A stretch of DNA of 62,040 nucleotides, from assembly GCA_025363475.1 (NCBI GenBank), contig JANYDS010000020.1, positions 1 to 62,040 of the forward strand. Direction: 5' to 3'. Below the pieces are notes generated by a model that worked only from the letters and a program-made list of their open reading frames with translations, ran no database searches and was not told the DNA's origin. The position numbers and the translations under genes were made by a program. Each line of letters begins with the position of its first letter. Position 1 is the first letter of the stretch. Source of the DNA: Terriglobia bacterium. Its GTDB lineage: Bacteria > Acidobacteriota > Terriglobia > Bryobacterales > Bryobacteraceae. Shown piece by piece: positions 2,241 through 12,632 of this stretch.

Positions 2241-3284
2241 TTACGCCAAACCGGCAGGAGCCTGTAGATGCATCTGGTCGGCCAGCTTTTCCAAGGCGCG
2301 CACGCCATCCACGTCCTGGTCCAGTTCTGAAAACACCTGCACTTCCCGCGCCTGGCCGGCATACCCCTGCTTCAGTTTCCAGATCTCTTTGCGGTGCGCG
2401 TCGCTCACGGTCTTATACCAGTCGAGAACTTCGCCCGCCAGGCCGCGCGGCACGGTATCCGGATACGGATGCAACCAGGCGCGGTTGACGCAAAACGCAC
2501 CAATCCGGAACTTGCGCTTGTTAAGCGCATCGGTGAAAAACGCGGCGTCGCGCAGAGCCTTCTGCGGCGTTGTCACGACCCGAAACTCAGTTACGGCAGG
2601 GTCGCGCAGCATCGCTACCGTCTTCTGCGCGCGCTTCGAATAGCCCTCCGCAATCGGATAGAACAGCGAATAGAAATCAAGAATCTGCCGCACAAGATGC
2701 ACGCCCAGAATCGATTCCACTCTACCCACGATATCCACCGCTCCCCTGCCGATGGCTGTCAAACCCAGACCCGCGGCCAGCTGATAAGTACGGCCCACGA
2801 GCTGAACCCTGCGTGAACCGGAAATATTGGCAAATAGTTCCGGTTTATCCAGAATCTCCAGCGCGTGCCGCGACGGTGCCGTATCGATCACGATGTGATC
2901 GAAGCCCTGCTGAATCAGCTGGTCAATCCGTTCCACCGCCATCAGTTCCTGCATACCGGCCAGTGACCCGGCAATAGTCGCATAGATGGAATGGTTCAGG
3001 ATCCGGTCAGACGTGGAATTCTTTGCATAGAGCCGCACGGCTTCATCAAGGGTGGCCCGTACATTTAGCAAAGAGGCCCAGAGTTCACCCGCCTTCGGAT
3101 CATCCAGAGGCACGCGCTGTTCGGTGATGTTATCGGTCAGTCCAAGCGCTGTGCGCAGGCGCAGGGAAGGGTCGGTGGTCATCACCATAGAGCGTTTGCC
3201 GGTCCGCGCGACAGCCAGTGCGGTGGCGGCTGCCACGGAAGTTTTACCCACACCGCCGGTGCCCAGATAGCAAATGATTTTCAT
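2241..3284 (-). CDS. ArsA/Get3-type ATPase, second gene of a pair
   Basis: A 347-residue P-loop ATPase of the ArsA/Get3 (TRC40) class. The P-loop is YLGTGGVGKTSVAAA near residues 6-20, followed by MTTDPS (switch I Asp) and DTAPSRHALEIL, the usual D-T-A-P-x-x-H element. The deviant Walker A of this class normally reads G-K-G-G-V-G-K-T; here the first Lys, which contacts the partner subunit's nucleotide, is Thr (G-T-G-G-V-G-K-T). The start ATG overlaps the stop of the upstream ATPase gene in an ATGA quartet at 3281-3284, so the two are translationally coupled and probably make a heteromeric complex. Paired ArsA-like genes are known in actinobacteria (Rv3679/Rv3680). There is no ArsB, ArsD or ArsR nearby, so arsenite export is not supported. 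The substrate is unknown. Confidence 0.85.
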   Translation of the reverse strand: MKIICYLGTGGVGKTSVAAATALAVARTGKRSMVMTTDPSLRLRTALGLTDNITEQRVPLDDPKAGELWASLLNVRATLDEAVRLYAKNSTSDRILNHSIYATIAGSLAGMQELMAVERIDQLIQQGFDHIVIDTAPSRHALEILDKPELFANISGSRRVQLVGRTYQLAAGLGLTAIGRGAVDIVGRVESILGVHLVRQILDFYSLFYPIAEGYSKRAQKTVAMLRDPAVTEFRVVTTPQKALRDAAFFTDALNKRKFRIGAFCVNRAWLHPYPDTVPRGLAGEVLDWYKTVSDAHRKEIWKLKQGYAGQAREVQVFSELDQDVDGVRALEKLADQMHLQAPAGLA

Positions 3285-4216
3285 GCCGGTTGCGGTTTCT
3301 CACCCGCACGGTGTTCCGGCAAAGTCAGCCACTGGCCGATCTGGTCGAGAAGATCAAGATCTCCGTCCCAATGGCGGATGCGCGGAATGGTCACCTGAGG
3401 CGCGGGAATCGCCGCTGCGACCTCCGCACCGCGTGCCCGCTCCGAACGACCGCGCGCCAGAGCGAAGCGAAATGCCGCTGATTCTTCGGAGGCTGTTTTC
3501 AACCGCGTCATCTCCTGTTCGGACGCGCTAAACAACGGCGAAACCAGATTCAGGATCAGGGCTGTACACTGGAGCCCGAAATCGCCCTGTAGCGCCTGCG
3601 TCATCTCAATGGTTTCCGCTATGGCCATTTCTTCGAGCGGCGTCACCGCCAGAATTTGCATGTTGGCGGAGTTGGAAAAGAAACGATCCAGTTCCGCTCC
3701 GGCCGCTGCGAGGGGTCCGGAAAGGAAGGTTTCAAAAGCACGGGCGGCGCGTAACGTACTCAGAAAATGCCCGCTGGCCGGCGCATCCCAGATCAGATAG
3801 TCGTAGTCCGGACCGTCTGCACCAGCCGCAGTTCTGCGCCGCTCTGCAAGCTGTTGCAGCCGCGCCAGAAAGTAGAACTCTTTCAGCCCAGGCGCAATGG
3901 CGATCAGGTTCGCGAAGAGTGAACTGTTCAGGATGGTCCGCGCCAGCAGAGGTACCGGAAAGTGCTTTTTCACAACCTCAGTGAGCAGTTCGCGCGGGTC
4001 AAGATGCACCACAAATAAGTTGCGGGCCGCGACGGGACAACGACGGCCCAGACCTTCGAGCGAGACCGAAATGGCCAGCTCATCGAGAGGCGCGGAACTC
4101 ACGATGACCACGCGTTTGCCCTCGCTCGCGTGCTTCAGCCCGAAGGCCAGGCTTAGAGTCGTTTTGCCGACTCCGCCTTTGCCGCACACAACCATGATTC
4201 GCGCCTGCGGGTCCAT
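3281..4216 (-). CDS. ArsA/Get3-type ATPase, first gene of a pair
   Basis: A 311-residue ATPase of the ArsA/Get3 class. The complete deviant Walker A is visible as VVCGKGGVGKTTLSLAFGLK near residues 9-28, with the signature Lys present. VIVSSAPLDELAISV occupies the switch I region, and WDAPASGHFLSTLRA the D-A-P-x-x-H switch II region. The region I would expect to bind a hydrophobic helix or tail is less conserved. It is the promoter-proximal partner of the gene ending at 2241 and overlaps it by four bases. The topoisomerase-helicase gene starts about 110 bases away in the opposite direction, so the two transcription units share an intergenic control region. A role in membrane-protein handling or envelope stress is inference from the Get3 and mycobacterial relatives. 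Confidence 0.85.
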   Translation of the reverse strand: MDPQARIMVVCGKGGVGKTTLSLAFGLKHASEGKRVVIVSSAPLDELAISVSLEGLGRRCPVAARNLFVVHLDPRELLTEVVKKHFPVPLLARTILNSSLFANLIAIAPGLKEFYFLARLQQLAERRRTAAGADGPDYDYLIWDAPASGHFLSTLRAARAFETFLSGPLAAAGAELDRFFSNSANMQILAVTPLEEMAIAETIEMTQALQGDFGLQCTALILNLVSPLFSASEQEMTRLKTASEESAAFRFALARGRSERARGAEVAAAIPAPQVTIPRIRHWDGDLDLLDQIGQWLTLPEHRAGEKPQPA

Positions 4217-4325: not shown

Positions 4326-7300
4326 TTGGAACCCGTCACAATCGCGGTACTGGCTGAAAAGCCTTCGGTGGCCCGCGATATTGCCAAAGTTCTTGGTGCA
4401 AACACGCGCGGCGATGGCTACTTGCACGGCAATGGTTATGTTGTGACGTGGGCAGTGGGACACCTGGCCTCGCTCGCGCAGCCCCATGAAATCCGGCCTG
4501 ACTGGAAGGCGTGGCGGCGCGAGTCTCTGCCGATGCTGCCGGAAAACTGGCCGCTGGTGGTCTATGAAAAAACCAAAGATCAGTTTGAAGTGGTGCGCCG
4601 CATCCTCAGTTCTCCGCGTGTGTCGAACATCATTTGCGCAACGGACGCCGGGCGCGAAGGCGAACTCATCTTCCGCTACATCTATGAAGCTGCGGCCTGT
4701 TCCAAGCCCGTAAGCCGGTTGTGGATTTCGTCGCTAACGCCGGAAGCCATCCGTAAAGGTCTTGATTCCGTGAAACCCGGCATCGACTACGACCCGCTCG
4801 CGGATGCAGCCCGTGGCCGCAGCCGGGCCGACTGGCTGGTGGGAATGAACCTGTCCCGAGCTTACTCGCTGACCTATGGCGACGATCTTAGCGTGGGCCG
4901 CGTGCAGACTCCCACGCTGGCCATGGTGGTGGATCGGGAACTGGCCGTGCGGCAGTTTGTTCCTGAAGACTATGCCGAAGTTTCAGCCATTTTCCGGCCG
5001 CAGGGGAAACCGGATGCAGAAGCGTACAAAGGTACGTGGATCCGCGATGTGAATGAGATCCAGAAATCGGCGCGGCTTGATCCGGATGGCATAGAGGCTG
5101 CGCAGATCGTCGCGCGCGCACGCACCGGGGCTGCTGCCATTGAAACGGTACAGGCGGAAACGCAGCGCATGCCTCCGCCGTTTTTCTATGATCTGACGGA
5201 ATTGCAACGCCATGCGAACCGGCTGTTCGGTTTCAGTGCGCAGAAGACCCTGGATCTGGCCCAGATTCTTTATGAGCGCTACAAGCTCATCAGTTATCCG
5301 CGAACCGACAGCCGGCACCTTTCGCAGGATGTTGCCGCCACGCTGCCTCGCATTGTCCGCACCGTTGAGGGGGCTTATAAGGTGGATCTGGCTCCCGGGA
5401 CCGGTGAGAAACCGCTGGGGCGCAGGTTCATCGACGATGCGAAAGTCAGCGACCACCACGCCATCATTCCCACGGTGACTTCACCGGAGCGCGCTGATCT
5501 CACGCCTGACGAAGCGAAGATTTACGACTTGATCTGTCGCCGCCTGTTGAGCGCCTGGCATTCCGATCACGTCTGGGCCACCACTACGGTAATCACGGCG
5601 ATTGTGAATGCTTCCGTTACGGATCGCTACCATTCGTCCGGGAAAGCCATCCAGCAGGTCGGCTGGAAAGTACTTGACGTTCAGGTGCGCAAGAAGAACG
5701 CACAGCAGGAAGAAGAACAGGCGTTACCCGGCGGACTTGCGGCGGGGCAGGCACAGGATGTGCTGGATGCGGAAAGCGTTCGCAAGAAAACCCGCGCGCC
5801 CAAGCGGCTGACTGAAGCGACGCTGCTGACTGCGATGGAAACGGCGGGCAAGACGCTTGATGAAAAAGAGCTTTCCGATGCCATGAAAGAATCTGGCCTC
5901 GGGACGCCCGCAACGCGCGCTTCCATTATTGAAGTTCTGCTCAAGCGCGAATATATTCTGCGCAATGGCAAGAATCTCGAAGCTACTGATAAAGGCATTC
6001 GCCTGATTGAAGTGGTGCATCCGGAAGTGCGCAGTCCCATCATGACCGGGCAGTGGGAGGCGCGGCTCAAGCAGATTGAACGGGGCAAGGCGGAACTCGG
6101 GCCGTTTCTCGCTGGCATCGAAGAATATGTGCGTGAAGTGGTGGGCAAGGTGAAGGGAATGCCGGCTGCACCGCGGGCGTCCGGACCTGTATCCGGGGCC
6201 GGATCTATGGCAATGATCGGGGCGGCAACCCCGGCAACTGCGCCCGCGCCTGGACAGAATGTCACCGGCGTCATGGCTCTTGAAAACGAACCGCTGGAAG
6301 ACCTGCTGCACCGCGCTTTCGGATTCGCTTCGTTTCGCGCAAATCAGGAAGAAGTCTGCCGTACCATCGTCGAAGGCCGCGATGCTCTGCTGGTGATGCC
6401 AACTGGTGCGGGCAAGTCTCTCTGCTATCAGCTGCCGGGTGTGGCGCGGGGTGGAACCACGCTCGTAATCAGCCCGCTGATCGCTCTGATGGAAGACCAG
6501 TATGCCAAACTGCGCGAACGCGGGTTTGCGGTGGACTGCATTCATTCCGGGCGCGACCGGGCGGCTTCACGCCAGGTTTGCATCGACTACCTGGCGGGCC
6601 GGTTGCAGTTCCTGTTCATTGCGCCTGAACGTCTGCGCGTGACTGGCTTTCCGGAAATGCTGGCGCGCCGCAAACCAACCCTGATCGCGATTGACGAAGC
6701 GCATTGCATTTCCCAGTGGGGTCACGATTTCAGGCCCGATTACCGTTTGCTGGGAAGTTATCTGCCTACCCTGCGCCCCGCGCCCGTGATTGCTCTTACG
6801 GCGACCGCAACACAGGTAGTACAGGAAGACATCCGCCGGCAATTGGGCCTCGAAAGCTCAGCCAGTTTTATTCATGGGTTTCGGCGCTCGAACATCGCGA
6901 TTGAAGTGGTTGAGACCAGCCCTGGCCAGCGTCCCGACCTTGCCCGGCAGTTACTGCTTGACCCCGACCGGCGGCCCGCCATCATCTATACCCCCAGCCG
7001 CAAACAGGCCGAAAGTGTTGCGGCGCTGCTCAAGGCCGACTTCCCGACAGCGGCTTACCACGCGGGTCTCGATGCGGACCGCCGCAGCCGCGTCCAGGAA
7101 GGCTTTCTGAATGGAAAGCTGGAAGTCATCGTGGCCACTATCGCATTCGGTATGGGCATTGATAAGGCCAATATCCGGTCAGTGATGCATACTGCGCTGC
7201 CAGGCAGCATGGAGGCCTACTATCAGGAAATCGGCCGTGCGGGCCGCGATGGCGAACCCAGCCGCGCCATTCTGATGCATTCGTATGCGGACCGCTATAC

Positions 7301-8324
7301 CCACGATTTCTTCTATGAACGGGACTATCCGGAAGCGATTGTGCTGGACCAGATTTTTAACCGGCTGCATCCGGAACCTCAGCCGCGGGCATTGATCGAA
7401 AAGCAACTCCGCCTGGGTGCCGATGTTTTTGAAAAGGCGCTGGAAAAGCTTTGGACCCACGGCGGTGCGGTGATTGACTACTCTGATAACGTCAGCCGTG
7501 GCACTGCGGACTGGCGCGAATCCTATGTGGAACAGGGTGCGCAGAAGCAAAGCCAGATCGAATCGATGATTCGTTATGCGCAGGGTCAGCATTGCCGCAT
7601 GTCTACCCTGGTGCGGCATTTCGGTGACGTAAAAGACGGGCAGACGTCGTGCGGCATTTGTGATTTCTGTGCGCCGCAGGATTGCATTGCGCAGTTGTTC
7701 CGTGCACCGAGCGTGGAAGAGGAGCGAGTGGCCCGGGCGGCGATTGAGGCGCTGCGCGGCAGTTCGCGCTCGGTCGGGCGTCTGCATACAGAGCTGTGCG
7801 GGGACCGCAGTTTATCCCGCGATGAATTCGAGGAACTGCTGGGCGCGATGGCCCGTGCGGCGCTGGTTGTGATGACCGACGCGGTCTTCGAAAAAGACGG
7901 CAAGCAGATCCCTTACCGCAAGGTCCATATCACGCGCGATGCGGAACATGTTGACGACGGGACGCCGCTTGCAATCACGATTCGCGACGCTGCGCCCGGT
8001 GCCAAGTCAGGTGGCAAGGCATCCCGAACGACGAAGAAAAAGGCTCCGTCCGCCCGGAAGACAAATGCCTCGACGGTCAGCAGGGAGACAAAGGTCGCGG
8101 AGCCGTCTCCAGGCGAAAAAATGCTGCGTGCATGGCGTACCGGCGTGGCAAAGAAACAGGGTGTGCCTGCGTTCCGCATCTTGTCGGACCGTGTTTTGCT
8201 GGCCATCGCCGAAGACCAGCCGCGCACTGCTGCGGAACTTCTGGAGATTCCCGGCATCGGAATCAAGATGGTGGAGAAGTTTGGCGCCCAGATTTACCGC
8301 ATCCTGAACGAGTTACAAAAGTAG
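4326..8324 (+). CDS. DNA topoisomerase III fused to RecQ helicase
   Basis: One uninterrupted frame encodes two enzymes that act together on DNA junctions. Positions below count from the upstream ATG at 4239; subtract 29 for the TTG start at 4326, chosen because TIAVLAEKPSVARDIA then sits at the N-terminus as in TopB. Topoisomerase part, about 36-635: Toprim DAGREGELIF from Asp136 and active-site Tyr353 in LISYPRTDSRHLS. There are no C-terminal zinc fingers. An Ala/Pro/Gly linker spans about 640-680. RecQ part, from about 680: Walker A MPTGAGKSLCYQLP (Lys726), DEAHCISQWGHDFRPDY (Asp819), FGMGIDK and QEIGRAGRDG, then Cys1119 and a C-G-I-C-D-F-C zinc cluster. A Lys/Ser-rich spacer precedes an HRDC domain of about 75 residues. 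TopIII and RecQ catalyse double-Holliday-junction dissolution and decatenation. No start with a ribosome site lies at the junction. Confidence 0.92.
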   Translation: MEPVTIAVLAEKPSVARDIAKVLGANTRGDGYLHGNGYVVTWAVGHLASLAQPHEIRPDWKAWRRESLPMLPENWPLVVYEKTKDQFEVVRRILSSPRVSNIICATDAGREGELIFRYIYEAAACSKPVSRLWISSLTPEAIRKGLDSVKPGIDYDPLADAARGRSRADWLVGMNLSRAYSLTYGDDLSVGRVQTPTLAMVVDRELAVRQFVPEDYAEVSAIFRPQGKPDAEAYKGTWIRDVNEIQKSARLDPDGIEAAQIVARARTGAAAIETVQAETQRMPPPFFYDLTELQRHANRLFGFSAQKTLDLAQILYERYKLISYPRTDSRHLSQDVAATLPRIVRTVEGAYKVDLAPGTGEKPLGRRFIDDAKVSDHHAIIPTVTSPERADLTPDEAKIYDLICRRLLSAWHSDHVWATTTVITAIVNASVTDRYHSSGKAIQQVGWKVLDVQVRKKNAQQEEEQALPGGLAAGQAQDVLDAESVRKKTRAPKRLTEATLLTAMETAGKTLDEKELSDAMKESGLGTPATRASIIEVLLKREYILRNGKNLEATDKGIRLIEVVHPEVRSPIMTGQWEARLKQIERGKAELGPFLAGIEEYVREVVGKVKGMPAAPRASGPVSGAGSMAMIGAATPATAPAPGQNVTGVMALENEPLEDLLHRAFGFASFRANQEEVCRTIVEGRDALLVMPTGAGKSLCYQLPGVARGGTTLVISPLIALMEDQYAKLRERGFAVDCIHSGRDRAASRQVCIDYLAGRLQFLFIAPERLRVTGFPEMLARRKPTLIAIDEAHCISQWGHDFRPDYRLLGSYLPTLRPAPVIALTATATQVVQEDIRRQLGLESSASFIHGFRRSNIAIEVVETSPGQRPDLARQLLLDPDRRPAIIYTPSRKQAESVAALLKADFPTAAYHAGLDADRRSRVQEGFLNGKLEVIVATIAFGMGIDKANIRSVMHTALPGSMEAYYQEIGRAGRDGEPSRAILMHSYADRYTHDFFYERDYPEAIVLDQIFNRLHPEPQPRALIEKQLRLGADVFEKALEKLWTHGGAVIDYSDNVSRGTADWRESYVEQGAQKQSQIESMIRYAQGQHCRMSTLVRHFGDVKDGQTSCGICDFCAPQDCIAQLFRAPSVEEERVARAAIEALRGSSRSVGRLHTELCGDRSLSRDEFEELLGAMARAALVVMTDAVFEKDGKQIPYRKVHITRDAEHVDDGTPLAITIRDAAPGAKSGGKASRTTKKKAPSARKTNASTVSRETKVAEPSPGEKMLRAWRTGVAKKQGVPAFRILSDRVLLAIAEDQPRTAAELLEIPGIGIKMVEKFGAQIYRILNELQK

Positions 8325-8395
8325 GTCTTCGATTGGCCATCCCCTTGCAGGCTTAGTGGCGTACGTCACCGCGATTGACACAAGGGAGACACTTT

Positions 8396-8812
8396 ATGAA
8401 GAAGAAACTACTCGCACTCGCAATGCTTGCTGGAGGTGCGCTGTTTGGGCAGATTACGATCCAGATTGGGCCGCCTCCCCAGCCCCGTATTTTACGAGTC
8501 CGTCCACCTCAGCCTGGTCCGGGGTATGTCTGGGTTGACGGGTATTGGAACCCCAATGGGAACCGCTACCAGTGGCATCCGGGCTATTGGACGCGGCCAC
8601 CTTATGATGGTGCTCTCTGGATCAACCCGCGTTACGAAAGTGGCATGTTCAACAACGGCTACTGGCAGGGCGGGGGAAGGGAGCGTTTCGAGCACAATCA
8701 CGGCTGGGACCGTGACAAACGTAACCGGGATTACCAGCGCGATGAGCGCAAAGATGAACGCAAAGAACGCAAGGATGAACGCAAGGAAGATCGCCGCGAC
8801 GACCATAGATAG
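8396..8812 (+). CDS. YXWGXW-type secreted protein with charged tail
   Basis: A 138-residue protein. The start at 8396 is supported by AAGGGAG eight bases upstream and by an immediate signal peptide (M-K-K-K-L then a hydrophobic run, ending near G-Q). The middle is rich in Gly, Pro, Tyr and Trp with repeats of the form G-Y-V-W-V-D-G-Y-W, Y-Q-W-H-P-G-Y-W and N-N-G-Y-W, as in YXWGXW-repeat proteins of unknown function. The last ~35 residues are almost entirely Asp, Glu, Arg and Lys (repeats of D-E-R-K). Export is likely; no enzymatic motif is visible. Its stop lies one base from the convergent protease stop. Confidence 0.8.
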   Translation: MKKKLLALAMLAGGALFGQITIQIGPPPQPRILRVRPPQPGPGYVWVDGYWNPNGNRYQWHPGYWTRPPYDGALWINPRYESGMFNNGYWQGGGRERFEHNHGWDRDKRNRDYQRDERKDERKERKDERKEDRRDDHR

Positions 8813-8813
8813 T

Positions 8814-11800
8814 CTACTTGCCGGTTTTTAAGCTGGTGGTTTGCGTCCAGACGCGACCACCAGCGTCGGTTCCCGTCAGTACAAAGGTAAGCGTGGCGGG
8901 CTGAGGAAACCACTGAACCGACATGAGGGCGATTAGCGTACCGCGTGCCGGCAGCTGTGAATTTCCAAACAACGCACTGATCGCGGATGAGAAGCTGGTG
9001 CCGTTGATGGTCAACCCGGTGAGTTTCGTTGGCACGCCATTCTGTTCCTGAATTTTCAGAGCCGCAGGGATGCCTGCTTGTACCGATGTTGCCAAAGCAG
9101 CGCTGAAGACCACGCTTGACTTGAGAGCCGGGTCTGCCACAACAGTTAGCTGTGCGGTAGCGGCGGAAGCACCGAAATTTCCCGTGGGTATATAGGTAGC
9201 CAAAATGGTGTTAATGCCACCGGGCAGGCTGCTGCCTTTGATGGAGACGGAGCCGACAGCATTGATCCCGGAGGATGTGAGTGCCACTGTACTGAGCGGG
9301 ATCCCTGCTGCCGTGAATTTTGCCGAGCCGGTGGGGCTGGCCCTACCGGTGGTTGCTTTTACGCTGAATTGGAGTTGGGCCGTGCCGGTGGAGTTGACGG
9401 CGGCTGAACTGGCCGACAGACTTGCTGCGGTAGCTGTGGTTCCAGGCAGAACTGTTACGGTGACCTGACCTGATGAACTGGTGAAATTACCGGCGGCAAT
9501 GTAATTGGCAGTAATCCTGTTTTCCCCGGTGTTGAGAGCGCCGCCTTTCACGGTTAGGGTCGCGGTGGCCGTGCTGGCAGAAAACGTCAGCGATACCGAA
9601 CCCAGTTGCGTGGTACCCAACATGAATGAAACCGTGCCTGTCGGTGCCATGCTGCCCGACCCCGGTTTTACCGTTGCCACCACTTGCGTGCTTGCTGTCT
9701 GCGGCAGTGAAGCCGGTGTGGCCGAAACGCTGGTGGACGTTGCCACCGCGGGCGGTGTGACGGTGACCATCACTAACGCTGACGTGGAAGCGAAGGTCTG
9801 GTTCCCTTCATAACCCGCCGTCACGGTATTGGTGCCGGCGATGAGTGCCGAACCCTTAACGACAAGTGTCGCCACGCCCGCCGCACTCAAAGGCGCAGAT
9901 CCCAGTGCGTTCCTGCCCGAAAAAAACGATACATTGCCTGTCGGACTCGCGCTGCCCGTCGCAGCTTTCACCCTTGCCGCGATGGTTGTAGACCCGGCAG
10001 GGAGAATCGCGGCCGGAGCCGCCGTCACGGTTGCCGCTGTCGCGATGGGGGGCACAGCACCCACTACCGTGACCGGCGCGGATCTTGACTCCGCGAATCC
10101 GCTCGCGCCGGCAAATGAAGCTGTCAGTTGATTGGGGCCGGCCGCAAGCTTCGACGCAGTAATCGTCAGCGTCGCTGCGGACGAAGCTAATAGCGCTGTT
10201 CCCAAAATCGAGCTGCCTGCGGCAAAAGTTACGGTCCCGGAGGCCGCAGGTTTCACCGTCGCAGTCAGTTGAAAACCGGCACTAGTGGCATTTACCACCA
10301 GTGTGGTGGTGGTAGCGACCACGGTTGACGTGACACTGACCACCGCTGTTCCTGTGGAGTTGCTGAAATTCCCGGTCGCAACATAGGCCGCCAGAATCGT
10401 ATTACTGCCGGCCGCAAGGTCGCTGCCTTTCAACGTGAACGTCGCGGCCGCTTTGCTGCCCGTGATCACGACAGGCGCGGAACCGAGCGCTGTATTGCCA
10501 GAACCAAACGTTACTGTTCCCGCTGGAAGTGATGCGCCGGTGACGGCTGTCAGTGTCGCCGTCAGCAGCGTGGAAGCTGCTGATGCAATGGAGGCTGGGC
10601 TGGCGGTAAGGCTGAGTGTGGTTCCCGCCCCTCCTGGCTGACTCGTCCATTTCGTGACCAGGTTGTAAGCGTCAACAGATCCCAGCCCCGTCACCATGTC
10701 GTAACCGACGCCCGCTTTGTAACCGAACGAGCCGTTGGCACAACCGTTGCTGCCGGCAGCGCACGGAACTATGTTGTCGCCCGCGATGGTGTCGTGAAAC
10801 ACGTCCGACGTCTTCTGCGCCAGGTTGTAGAGCGCGGGATTGATATTGCCCAGACCTGCTTTGGCAAGGCTCCCCTTCGCCACCAGATACTGGTTGAGGA
10901 GCGACACAATACCGGCGAAAGCAGGCGAAGAAGCCGACGTCCCGCCTACGGAATACAACTGCCCGTTGGCAAACATCAGGTAACCATCGTGCGCGCCGGA
11001 GGCTGATAACGAGACATCAGGAACATCGCGCGCCTTGTCATCAGGCACGCCTGTTCCCGACTGCCACCACGGCTTGCCATAAACCTGACTAGCGCCTCCC
11101 CCTGTCGATGCAAGACCCTGCCCCAGCGCCGTGTCATTCCAGGCTTTTTCGGAAATCCAGCCGGAAGCAGAAGCCCAGTTCGCCGTGTTCGTGCTGCCCC
11201 ACCCGAGGCTGCTGGTGTCATTGGCTGTCTCATTAAATTCGGTGCCGCCGACAGCGGTCACTTCCGGGATGTTGGCTGGAAACACAACCGCCGGCCCGCC
11301 GGTTGCCACTTTCACGTTATAGTCGCACCCAGCCGCGCCGGAATCACCCGATGAATTCAGCCAGGTGATGCCCTGTGCGTTCGCCTGCTGGGCGATGGAA
11401 CGAAAGCCGGCGGGGTTGCCGGTCTCGCATCCGCCGTAGCTCAGGCTTATCACGGGGGCCAGATTCTGATCAATGGCGTATTGAATGGAATCGAAGACGT
11501 TGCGGGAATTGACGTAGATGATGGTCGCGTTACGGGCCACCGCTCCTGACCATTCCAGATCCAGATCGGCTTCTATCTGATCTTCGGGACTCACGCCCGG
11601 GTCTGAACCTGAAAGCACGATTTGCGGATCTTTTACCGGCAACCCGAAGCGGCTGCGGAATGCCCGTATATCGGCCAGGTTGATGTTTGTCTGGCCGGGA
11701 ATGACGATCTTCTGCCCGGTGCCGTCATATCCTGCTCTGTAAAGCGCAGAGATGTTGTAGATCGCAGCCAGGTCGTCCGGTGCCAGATAGTGGGCGCCGT

Positions 11801-12446
11801 TTGAAGCAGTAAACGCAGGCCGCATTCGTGTAGTTCGCTGCGGATGGGGCCGAAAGTCATCCAGACCGCGAATGCTTTCCACAAGATCTGCCACAGCCTC
11901 AGGAACGGCCGGTTCGGTCATGTTGGCGAAATGCGTCCCGCCATCCGCCGCGTAACGGTGCAATGAAGTTCGGAACGTCCGTGCCACTTGCCCGGCCGTA
12001 CCGCGAACTGAAATCCTGTTGCGCCCCCGCGCCACGGTGATGTCTGCAAAACCCTGCGCCTGCAGCCAGGAGGAAAGCGCGGCCAGATCCGCCGGGCTGG
12101 CACCGAAACGTTCGCCGAACTCTTCCGGTGTCAGCCAGTGCTGGTATTCCGGCGAAGCGGGGTTTCGCTGTTGTTCCAGGAAATCTTCCAGCAGCGCGGC
12201 CTGTTCGTCAGAGGGCTTGAGCATGAGCGAAAGGTTTTCCAGCACCAGAGAATCGGGGACAATCCCCCGGTCATTTTCCGGCAGGGCCAGCCGGTGGATC
12301 TGGCCACGCAGAGACACCATGCGACTGGCCTGTATCGGCCCCTGGATGCGCGCGGGCGGTGCAGCCAGAATTGCGGCGGCAGCAAGAGTTATCAGCGTGA
12401 GCAGGCGCGCGATTCCGCGAGCAGCTCTGCAAGAGATGACAAGCAC
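8814..12446 (-). CDS. Sedolisin (S53, pro-kumamolisin) protease with Ig-like repeats
   Basis: A secreted serine-carboxyl protease of about 1210 residues. I prefer the GTG at 12446: AGGAGG lies four bases upstream and a hydrophobic export signal follows. An ATG at 12470 is the alternative. A pro-domain of about 170 residues (S-P-E-Y-Q-H-W-L-T-P-E-E-F) precedes the catalytic domain. Counting from the GTG, the catalytic residues are Glu292 and Asp296 (QIEADLDLEW), oxyanion Asp368 (NSSGDSGAAG) and nucleophile Ser504 (SVGGTSASSPAFAG). The calcium site reads H-D-T-I-A-G-D-N ... G-Y-D-M-V-T-G-L-G. From about residue 610 come roughly five Ig-like repeats of about 95 residues (PTGTVSF--G---LGS-PL pattern), then a unique end. 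Sedolisins usually act at acidic pH. The Ig repeats probably anchor the enzyme or bind a surface, which is inference. Confidence 0.93.
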   Translation of the reverse strand: MLVISCRAARGIARLLTLITLAAAAILAAPPARIQGPIQASRMVSLRGQIHRLALPENDRGIVPDSLVLENLSLMLKPSDEQAALLEDFLEQQRNPASPEYQHWLTPEEFGERFGASPADLAALSSWLQAQGFADITVARGRNRISVRGTAGQVARTFRTSLHRYAADGGTHFANMTEPAVPEAVADLVESIRGLDDFRPHPQRTTRMRPAFTASNGAHYLAPDDLAAIYNISALYRAGYDGTGQKIVIPGQTNINLADIRAFRSRFGLPVKDPQIVLSGSDPGVSPEDQIEADLDLEWSGAVARNATIIYVNSRNVFDSIQYAIDQNLAPVISLSYGGCETGNPAGFRSIAQQANAQGITWLNSSGDSGAAGCDYNVKVATGGPAVVFPANIPEVTAVGGTEFNETANDTSSLGWGSTNTANWASASGWISEKAWNDTALGQGLASTGGGASQVYGKPWWQSGTGVPDDKARDVPDVSLSASGAHDGYLMFANGQLYSVGGTSASSPAFAGIVSLLNQYLVAKGSLAKAGLGNINPALYNLAQKTSDVFHDTIAGDNIVPCAAGSNGCANGSFGYKAGVGYDMVTGLGSVDAYNLVTKWTSQPGGAGTTLSLTASPASIASAASTLLTATLTAVTGASLPAGTVTFGSGNTALGSAPVVITGSKAAATFTLKGSDLAAGSNTILAAYVATGNFSNSTGTAVVSVTSTVVATTTTLVVNATSAGFQLTATVKPAASGTVTFAAGSSILGTALLASSAATLTITASKLAAGPNQLTASFAGASGFAESRSAPVTVVGAVPPIATAATVTAAPAAILPAGSTTIAARVKAATGSASPTGNVSFFSGRNALGSAPLSAAGVATLVVKGSALIAGTNTVTAGYEGNQTFASTSALVMVTVTPPAVATSTSVSATPASLPQTASTQVVATVKPGSGSMAPTGTVSFMLGTTQLGSVSLTFSASTATATLTVKGGALNTGENRITANYIAAGNFTSSSGQVTVTVLPGTTATAASLSASSAAVNSTGTAQLQFSVKATTGRASPTGSAKFTAAGIPLSTVALTSSGINAVGSVSIKGSSLPGGINTILATYIPTGNFGASAATAQLTVVADPALKSSVVFSAALATSVQAGIPAALKIQEQNGVPTKLTGLTINGTSFSSAISALFGNSQLPARGTLIALMSVQWFPQPATLTFVLTGTDAGGRVWTQTTSLKTGK

Positions 12447-12632
12447 GATTCCTCCTATCTGTAAATTCATAAAGGCGGGTTGTTTGAGCTCCTGTTTTTT
12501 GACCGGGTTCCCAAAAGCGAACACTCCCGTTTCAAAATGGAACTTCTGGTTAAGTCCACTATCGACGGAACTGCTCCCGGGCTGTAGAGGCGCAGGCGGT
12601 TTATTTTGGGACCGAAGCTACTATGAACAAGA

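Follow-up and report, generated by a model that had tools for sequence, protein, structure and literature searches.

A conserved topoisomerase III-RecQ fusion protein of soil bacteria as a probable single-chain machine for dissolving DNA joint molecules

RecQ-family helicases and topoisomerase III are partners in the eukaryotic dissolvasomes, BLM-TOP3A-RMI1/2 in humans and Sgs1-Top3-Rmi1 in yeast, whose components are separate proteins. In reverse gyrase, a helicase-like part is found at the N-terminus. According to the account given in one review, RecQ unwinds and branch-migrates DNA, topoisomerase III passes single strands, and the two jointly dissolve double Holliday junctions and resolve late replication links (PMC8191776). 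Here we analyzed a 62,040-nucleotide stretch of the genome of a Terriglobia bacterium (hereafter, the window), in which one gene at 4326-8324 on the forward strand encodes both enzymes as a fusion. An earlier interpretation made from the letters of the window (the sequence-only reading) had counted E. coli among the organisms in which the two separate proteins form a dissolvasome; in favor of this, the same review mentions that E. coli RecQ and topoisomerase III can form a complex (PMC8191776), but a second paper, in its passages on E. coli, reports no physical interaction, yet a stimulation of topoisomerase III by RecQ in vitro (PMC4125114), and a 2026 paper refers to the interaction as not observed (PMC13244152).

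The gene forms a single stop-free frame encoding an entire TopB-type topoisomerase III, a linker of about 40 residues and an entire RecQ helicase. Pfam domains of both enzymes were detected in the frame, and the same architecture was found in 58 other loci. RecQ and topoisomerase III are physically associated in one chain, provided that no post-translational cut occurs. The frame was open across 6160-6280, where a stop or frameshift had been considered possible. Residue numbers are counted from TTG 4326, which is more likely to be the start than GTG 4239; in the 17 relatives shown, the frames begin at scattered positions upstream of the conserved AEKPS, several of them near the equivalent of TTG 4326. 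The sequence-only reading numbered residues from 4239, so that its Tyr353 and Lys726 are Tyr324 and Lys697 here, and the motifs that it had listed were recovered at residues 107 (DAGREGE), 323 (SYPRTDS), 692 (PTGAGKS) and 790 (DEAH). The gene and its parts are as follows.

4326..8324, + strand: TopB-RecQ fusion gene, 1332 residues from TTG 4326 (1361 if GTG 4239 is the start)
4347..4733, + strand: Toprim domain (Pfam PF01751, residues 8-136), with DAGREGE at 4644-4664 (residue 107)
4791..6107, + strand: type IA topoisomerase core (Pfam PF01131 Topoisom_bac, residues 156-594, whole-protein E 1.4e-107)
5040..5078, + strand: segment (residues 239-251 of the fusion) that takes the position of the decatenation loop in the alignment to E. 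coli TopIII
5295..5297, + strand: active-site Tyr324, in the SYPRTDS motif at residue 323
6171..6290, + strand: linker (residues ~616-655), poorly conserved and predicted to be disordered
6339..6824, + strand: RecQ helicase lobe 1 (Pfam PF00270 DEAD, residues 672-833)
6414-6416, + strand: Walker Lys697, in the PTGAGKS motif at residue 692
6693-6704, + strand: DEAH, at residue 790
6945..7253, + strand: RecQ helicase lobe 2 (Pfam PF00271 Helicase_C, residues 874-976), with motif VI GRAGRDG
7296..7550, + strand: extra stretch between lobe 2 and the zinc domain (residues ~991-1075, ~85 residues), unaligned to E. coli RecQ
7533..7670, + strand: RecQ zinc-binding domain with four Cys (Pfam PF16124 RecQ_Zn_bind, residues 1070-1115)
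7713..7931, + strand: winged-helix-like region with a beta-hairpin, from the secondary structure of the predicted model
8121..8303, + strand: HRDC domain (Pfam PF00570, residues 1266-1326), helices in the predicted model

We consider it probable (roughly 0.72) that the fusion is a RecQ-topoisomerase III machine in a single chain, which dissolves both joint molecules and the links left late in replication. Its RecQ half would unwind and branch-migrate joint molecules, namely double Holliday junctions, D-loops and the last duplex between converging forks, and the tethered topoisomerase III half would cut and pass the exposed single strands, such that links are removed without crossover. The flexible linker would hold the topoisomerase close to the single strands made by the helicase, with no fixed contact of the halves required. 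The coupled activity and the substrates are predictions from sequence; coupling is supported by the completeness of both halves, their invariant catalytic residues, their low ratios of nonsynonymous to synonymous substitution rates (dN/dS), their covariation, the single origin of the fused topoisomerase and the lack of another TopB in 44 genomes.

The fusion contains the same two enzyme families as the BLM and Sgs1 dissolvasomes, and would be expected to act on the same intermediates, as these are described in the review (PMC8191776). Unlike those complexes, it is one chain with the topoisomerase at the N-terminus, contains no Rmi domain by Pfam and uses a bacterial TopB-type enzyme. Reverse gyrase, according to the same source, likewise is a single chain that combines topoisomerase and helicase domains (PMC8191776); however, the helicase of the fusion is of the RecQ family and lies C-terminal to the topoisomerase, so that the domain order is reversed, and the reverse gyrase model (NCBIfam rgy) was not reached (113 bits against a cut-off of 471.7, from the topoisomerase part only). 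In a Listeria record (L177, 2980-6929), recQ and topB are adjacent and 23 bases apart; the gene families are the same as in the fusion, but they encode two proteins and stand in the opposite order. This adjacency indicates that the pairing is not restricted to the fusion. No description of a TopB-RecQ fusion was found in the titles and abstract openings of the open-access literature searched, subscription papers being mostly outside that search, and public domain databases may well show the architecture. We regard the fusion, which has a single origin, as a variant of the known pairing of RecQ with topoisomerase III; the indirect evidence that its halves are functionally coupled is good.

We compared the two halves with family models and with the E. 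coli enzymes. The fusion passed both NCBIfam models of DNA topoisomerase 3 / III, NF005829 (668 bits, cut-off 597) and TIGR01056 (576 bits, cut-off 515.75), as well as the RecQ family model TIGR00614 (389.5 bits, cut-off 219.8), and scored below the cut-off of the DNA helicase RecQ equivalog TIGR01389 (477.5 against 640.2 bits). By these scores, the RecQ half classes as a RecQ-family helicase of a divergent branch. The topoisomerase half was aligned to E. coli TopIII residues 5-608 and the RecQ half to the E. coli RecQ core (1oyw); the two are separate proteins in E. coli. The RecQ half differs from E. coli RecQ in the extra stretch of about 85 residues before the zinc domain, which falls in the gap between two aligned 1oyw domains, is helical in the predicted model and is without an E. 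coli RecQ counterpart. It also differs in the region that follows the zinc domain, where the fusion protein gave no Pfam match to RQC and the predicted model shows a winged-helix-like order of helices and hairpin. The segment at 5040..5078 was located by the residue numbers of the E. coli TopIII decatenation loop. This segment is longer than its equivalent in three TopA proteins, and may work as a decatenation loop; a recent paper describes Rmi1 as functionally equivalent to the decatenation loop of the bacterial enzyme (PMC13244152). The sequence-only reading had stressed that the topoisomerase lacks C-terminal zinc fingers. Indeed, no CxxC was found in the topoisomerase half and linker, but this is unremarkable, because the C-terminal domain of E. 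coli TopIII is, by the review's description, shorter too (PMC8191776). Two stand-alone TopB-type frames of about 1064 residues (L161, 393-3581, and L162, 603-3797) carry five or six CxxC in a long C-terminal part.

To describe conservation, we used 59 fusions, namely the window and 58 other loci, each with more than 500 residues of both halves; near-copies were kept, whereas contig-cut or frameshifted copies were dropped, as were loci duplicating the window or one of seven relatives, and a few of the 58 stop at a contig edge or miss the last domain. EKP, DAGREGE, the active-site Tyr, the Walker Lys, DEAH, motif VI GRAGRDG and the four zinc Cys were invariant in 59/59 fusions, while positions beside these motifs, such as Ser323 and Ala695, vary. 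The dN/dS was 0.04-0.13 in each half (six fusion pairs; for the window against L039, the synonymous rate dS was about 1.9 and near saturation). Both halves are under purifying selection, and the proposal of the sequence-only reading, that an entire TopIII is covalently joined one to one with an entire RecQ, stands. Moreover, the pairwise identities of the two halves were correlated (r = 0.92; the largest value in 999 permutations was 0.35).

The fusion is real and conserved, and not an assembly error. The window genome (4.16 Mb, 96% complete) is a draft of 96 contigs, which would be the opening for a sequencing or assembly artefact; however, 85 of 200 genomes from the window's order contained, among the matches listed, a frame of at least 1250 residues spanning both halves, and the fusion occurred in one frame in genomes of one to four contigs (G1217, G1315, G1270, G1230 and G1219). 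The chance of an artefact is accordingly negligible, and together with the 59/59 invariant catalytic residues and the dN/dS values these counts also rule out a pseudogene.

The linker was 14-129 residues long in the 59 fusions, with a median of 40, in line with the length of about 40 residues (~616-655) noted earlier for the window protein, and identity was 0.15-0.21 in the linker bins 621-660. The protein was modelled as two pieces, a two-part model of 1200 residues and a 717-residue model of the linker and RecQ half. The latter reached a predicted local distance difference test (pLDDT) score of 88 and a predicted template modelling (pTM) score of 0.76, with the winged-helix-like region, its beta-hairpin and HRDC present; in Foldseek comparisons RecQ cores ranked first, at a template modelling (TM) score on the target of just 0.72 and a root-mean-square deviation (rmsd) of 7.8. 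For the two-part model, E. coli TopIII ranked first, and the TM score on the target of about 0.55 and rmsd of about 12 indicate that the topoisomerase domains of the model are not positioned exactly as in the crystal. Because its pTM was 0.47 and its pLDDT was below 50 over most of the linker, no fixed arrangement of the halves is predicted, and the linker is modelled as a flexible tether.

The linker region was also inspected with regard to the idea that one chain is made but two are used, an internal start or linker cleavage yielding free RecQ. The window has an ATG just ahead of the RecQ part, and the 59 fusions contain 28 in-frame linker ATGs; those with a ribosome-binding-like sequence occurred in 3 fusions (two of them near-copies), a rate no lower than the 50/1328 found elsewhere in these genes. 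In contrast, 56 of the 59 fusions, including the window, had no such ATG (ATG starts counted). An internal ATG start is thereby ruled out as a general feature, and we regard the production of free RecQ as very unlikely.

We then searched 49 genomes for separate TopB and RecQ proteins: 44 with the fusion (more than 500 residues of each half; 40 Acidobacteriota and 4 Myxococcales), one with a contig-cut fusion, two with a shortened form and two without the fusion. The window genome contained two type IA topoisomerases, an 842-residue frame scoring as TopA and the fusion; beside the fusion, it had neither a TopB nor a RecQ above the family cut-off. Elsewhere, one further type IA enzyme per genome, sometimes in pieces, was found beside the fusion or shortened form, except in one genome that showed the fusion only (G321). 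A second TopB was found in 0/44 fusion genomes, all other type IA rows being TopA-like. Eighteen of these rows scored 82-106 bits against the fused topoisomerase, compared with 404-480 bits for 15 stand-alone TopBs. The remaining 29 stretches (including those of G241, G281 and G246) scored far higher against the TopA of the window genome than against TopB or the fused topoisomerase, whereas four stand-alone TopBs scored in the opposite direction. Similarly, no row for an ordinary TopB was present in the 200 genomes of the order among the matches listed (three candidates scored per genome). A second RecQ-family match at 1e-40 was absent from 27 of the 44 fusion genomes, and one or two were present in 17. 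The fusion presumably does the work of TopB in its lineages, and in many of them that of RecQ too.

The distribution of the fusion was assessed in evenly drawn samples with few candidates scored per genome, in which absences are soft; Myxococcota denotes the phylum of a Myxococcales metagenome-assembled genome (MAG; G331, locus L072), and phylum labels of relatives are inferred. In 297 Acidobacteriota genomes, the one-frame fusion was present in at least seven (G000, the window genome, and G005, G021, G055, G062, G152 and G176), with a further copy split by contig ends (G246) and two of the shortened form (G241 and G281). Beyond the 85 genomes of the window's order mentioned above, about 20 more contained, among the matches listed, pieces of the fusion split by contig ends or frameshifts. 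The fusion was found in 22/188 Myxococcota genomes among the matches listed, and in 1/148 genomes of the phylum of a deltaproteobacterial locus, L109 (G595; E limit 1e-90), 1/145 of the phylum of a Verrucomicrobia MAG (G1073; E limit 1e-100) and 0/398 of the phylum of an alphaproteobacterial MAG (E limit 1e-110). A scan of named genomes gave 79 loci (the best of 244 relatives), with fusions in Bryobacterales, Solibacter, Paludibaculum, Bryobacter and four Myxococcales MAGs, among others; those nearest to the window belong to MAGs of Bryobacterales and other Acidobacteriota. The order of a Solibacteraceae MAG (L057, G315) yielded the same group of genomes as the window's order. No plasmid or phage record covered 80% of the query in one place (best 5000 plasmid records; 90 matching phage records).

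Phylogenetic trees were computed from 72 topoisomerase and 113 RecQ rows and from reduced sets of 50 and 51 rows, respectively. In the reduced tree, 30 fused topoisomerases and one shortened form were split from 19 stand-alone TopBs with support of 100/99 and in 100% of 200 bootstrap trees, and fusions from different phyla were intermixed. The larger quick tree concurred (support 99), and both topoisomerase trees have long branches among the stand-alone rows. The simplest account of these trees is that the fusion arose once and was then transferred between phyla. The RecQ halves formed one long-stemmed clade together with stand-alone RecQs of Acidobacteriaceae and others, and in the reduced RecQ tree the fusions formed one group in 0/200 bootstrap trees. 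A single clade of all fusion RecQs was rejected against all stand-alone RecQs (approximately unbiased test, p 6.9e-5), but was not rejected in a comparison restricted to stand-alones of the Acidobacteriaceae type plus the outgroup (p 0.304). The Acidobacteriaceae RecQ may either have descended from the fusion or be older than it. The stand-alone RecQs of L037 and L086 probably lost their topoisomerase half, as perhaps did that of L026, which has a contig end nearby.

In two genomes of one genus (family f2), a fused-type topoisomerase is followed in frame by a RecQ remnant of 184 residues (L015, 1387-4080, in G281, and L016, 1441-4065, in G241). In the remnant DEAH has become EEAE, the QWGHDFRP stretch is gone and the Walker motif is changed with its Lys retained; between the two genomes, dN/dS was 0.136 in the remnant and 0.075 in the topoisomerase. 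Each genome also encodes a separate RecQ whose Walker, DEAH and zinc motifs are intact. The topoisomerase of the shortened form nests within the Bryobacterales fusions and its remnant is closest to fusion RecQs, which suggests transfer followed by decay. The dN/dS places the stub under purifying selection, so that it would have a structural or DNA-binding role. A few rows may represent a fused-type topoisomerase without RecQ (G399 and G411 in the Myxococcota sample, and G1215 in the window's order). Helicases of this type occur repeatedly on their own, the fused topoisomerase type does not clearly do so, and a stub without DEAH is under selection. On this basis we tentatively entertain, at about one chance in three, that a single-chain dissolvasome of ancient date arose once as a module and then passed among Acidobacteriota, Myxococcota and, sporadically, further phyla; its topoisomerase would have come to depend on the RecQ arm, and its helicase would have stayed independent of the topoisomerase.

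The same observations bear on the possibility that the two enzymes are independent and are made from one transcript, in one chain, as a matter of convenience, with no functional coupling. The length and sequence of the linker are unconserved, the predicted model has no fixed arrangement and RecQ stands alone in some lineages, all of which would fit such a protein. However, the fused form has been retained across several families of two phyla with its halves co-varying, no topoisomerase of the fused type that lacks a RecQ part was encountered (barring contig cuts, frameshifts and the few unresolved rows), and even the decayed RecQ stub stays in frame. We therefore consider uncoupled enzymes unlikely.

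Several results weigh against a coupled machine for dissolution. In E. coli, topoisomerase I is described as the preferred partner of RecQ in the relevant part of one study (PMC4125114), and the genetics reported in another paper's discussion of topoisomerase III connect it with RecG, not RecQ (PMC13244152). RuvC was found in 32 of 33 genomes examined, including the window genome, so that junctions have another outlet besides dissolution; a fusion that replaces RuvC is ruled out by the same count. Stand-alone RecQs nest among the fusions, indicating that the helicase can do without coupling in some lineages. A row of ordinary-TopB strength also occurred in at least 3 of the 22 Myxococcota fusion genomes (G421, G466 and G491); the search for separate topB and recQ genes that the sequence-only reading had proposed thus found no second TopB in the 44 genomes, but did find one in these others, and a second RecQ in 17 of the 44. 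The distribution is patchy: among the matches listed, about half of the order's 200 genomes showed no fusion (37 had no match at 1e-60), the same held for 3 of the 15 genomes sampled from the window's genus, and two genomes of the window's family (G187 and G289) had neither fusion nor TopB, their sole type IA row scoring as TopA (L152 and L150, respectively) and both having a short RecQ. Finally, we compared the surroundings of 40 named fusion loci, 33 with more than 3 kb on at least one side; no neighboring gene cluster was shared by more than 4 of them.

The outlet provided by RuvC would also agree with a narrower version of the dissolution machine, whose probability overlaps with that of the broader one: the fusion would be mainly a replication enzyme, whose RecQ half would open duplex DNA behind the fork or the last stretch of it where forks converge, and whose topoisomerase III half would remove precatenanes, with recombination being secondary. 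Precatenane removal is given as the sole well-established role of E. coli topoisomerase III in the paper's treatment of that enzyme (PMC13244152). However, the RecQ half retains its zinc, winged-helix-like and HRDC parts, and the present data do not separate the two roles. We hold this restriction to replication to be possible, with about one chance in three, and favor the single-chain machine that acts on both joint molecules and late replication links.

Two ArsA-type ATPase genes at 2241-4216 (- strand), overlapping by four bases, are divergent from the fusion; these two genes and those at 8375-8812 and 8814-12524 were matched in no other fetched locus. The DUF3738 gene of the window was matched in L046 and L054, and the genes at 12633-16218 in L065. 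The latter (+ strand) are two similar-looking tandem genes with no Pfam match, ahead of an MBOAT acyltransferase gene.

Cooperation of topoisomerase III with RecQ is disputed in E. coli, and the fusion bears on that question, since selection on it in two phyla implies that both enzymes are present at the same place and time in these bacteria. The fusion also offers a defined one-to-one enzyme for dissolution assays, and its natural variants, a lone RecQ and a topoisomerase that retains a decayed RecQ stub, allow the contribution of each part to be told apart. These results suggest that many soil bacteria carrying the fusion use both enzymes together to separate tangled chromosomes.

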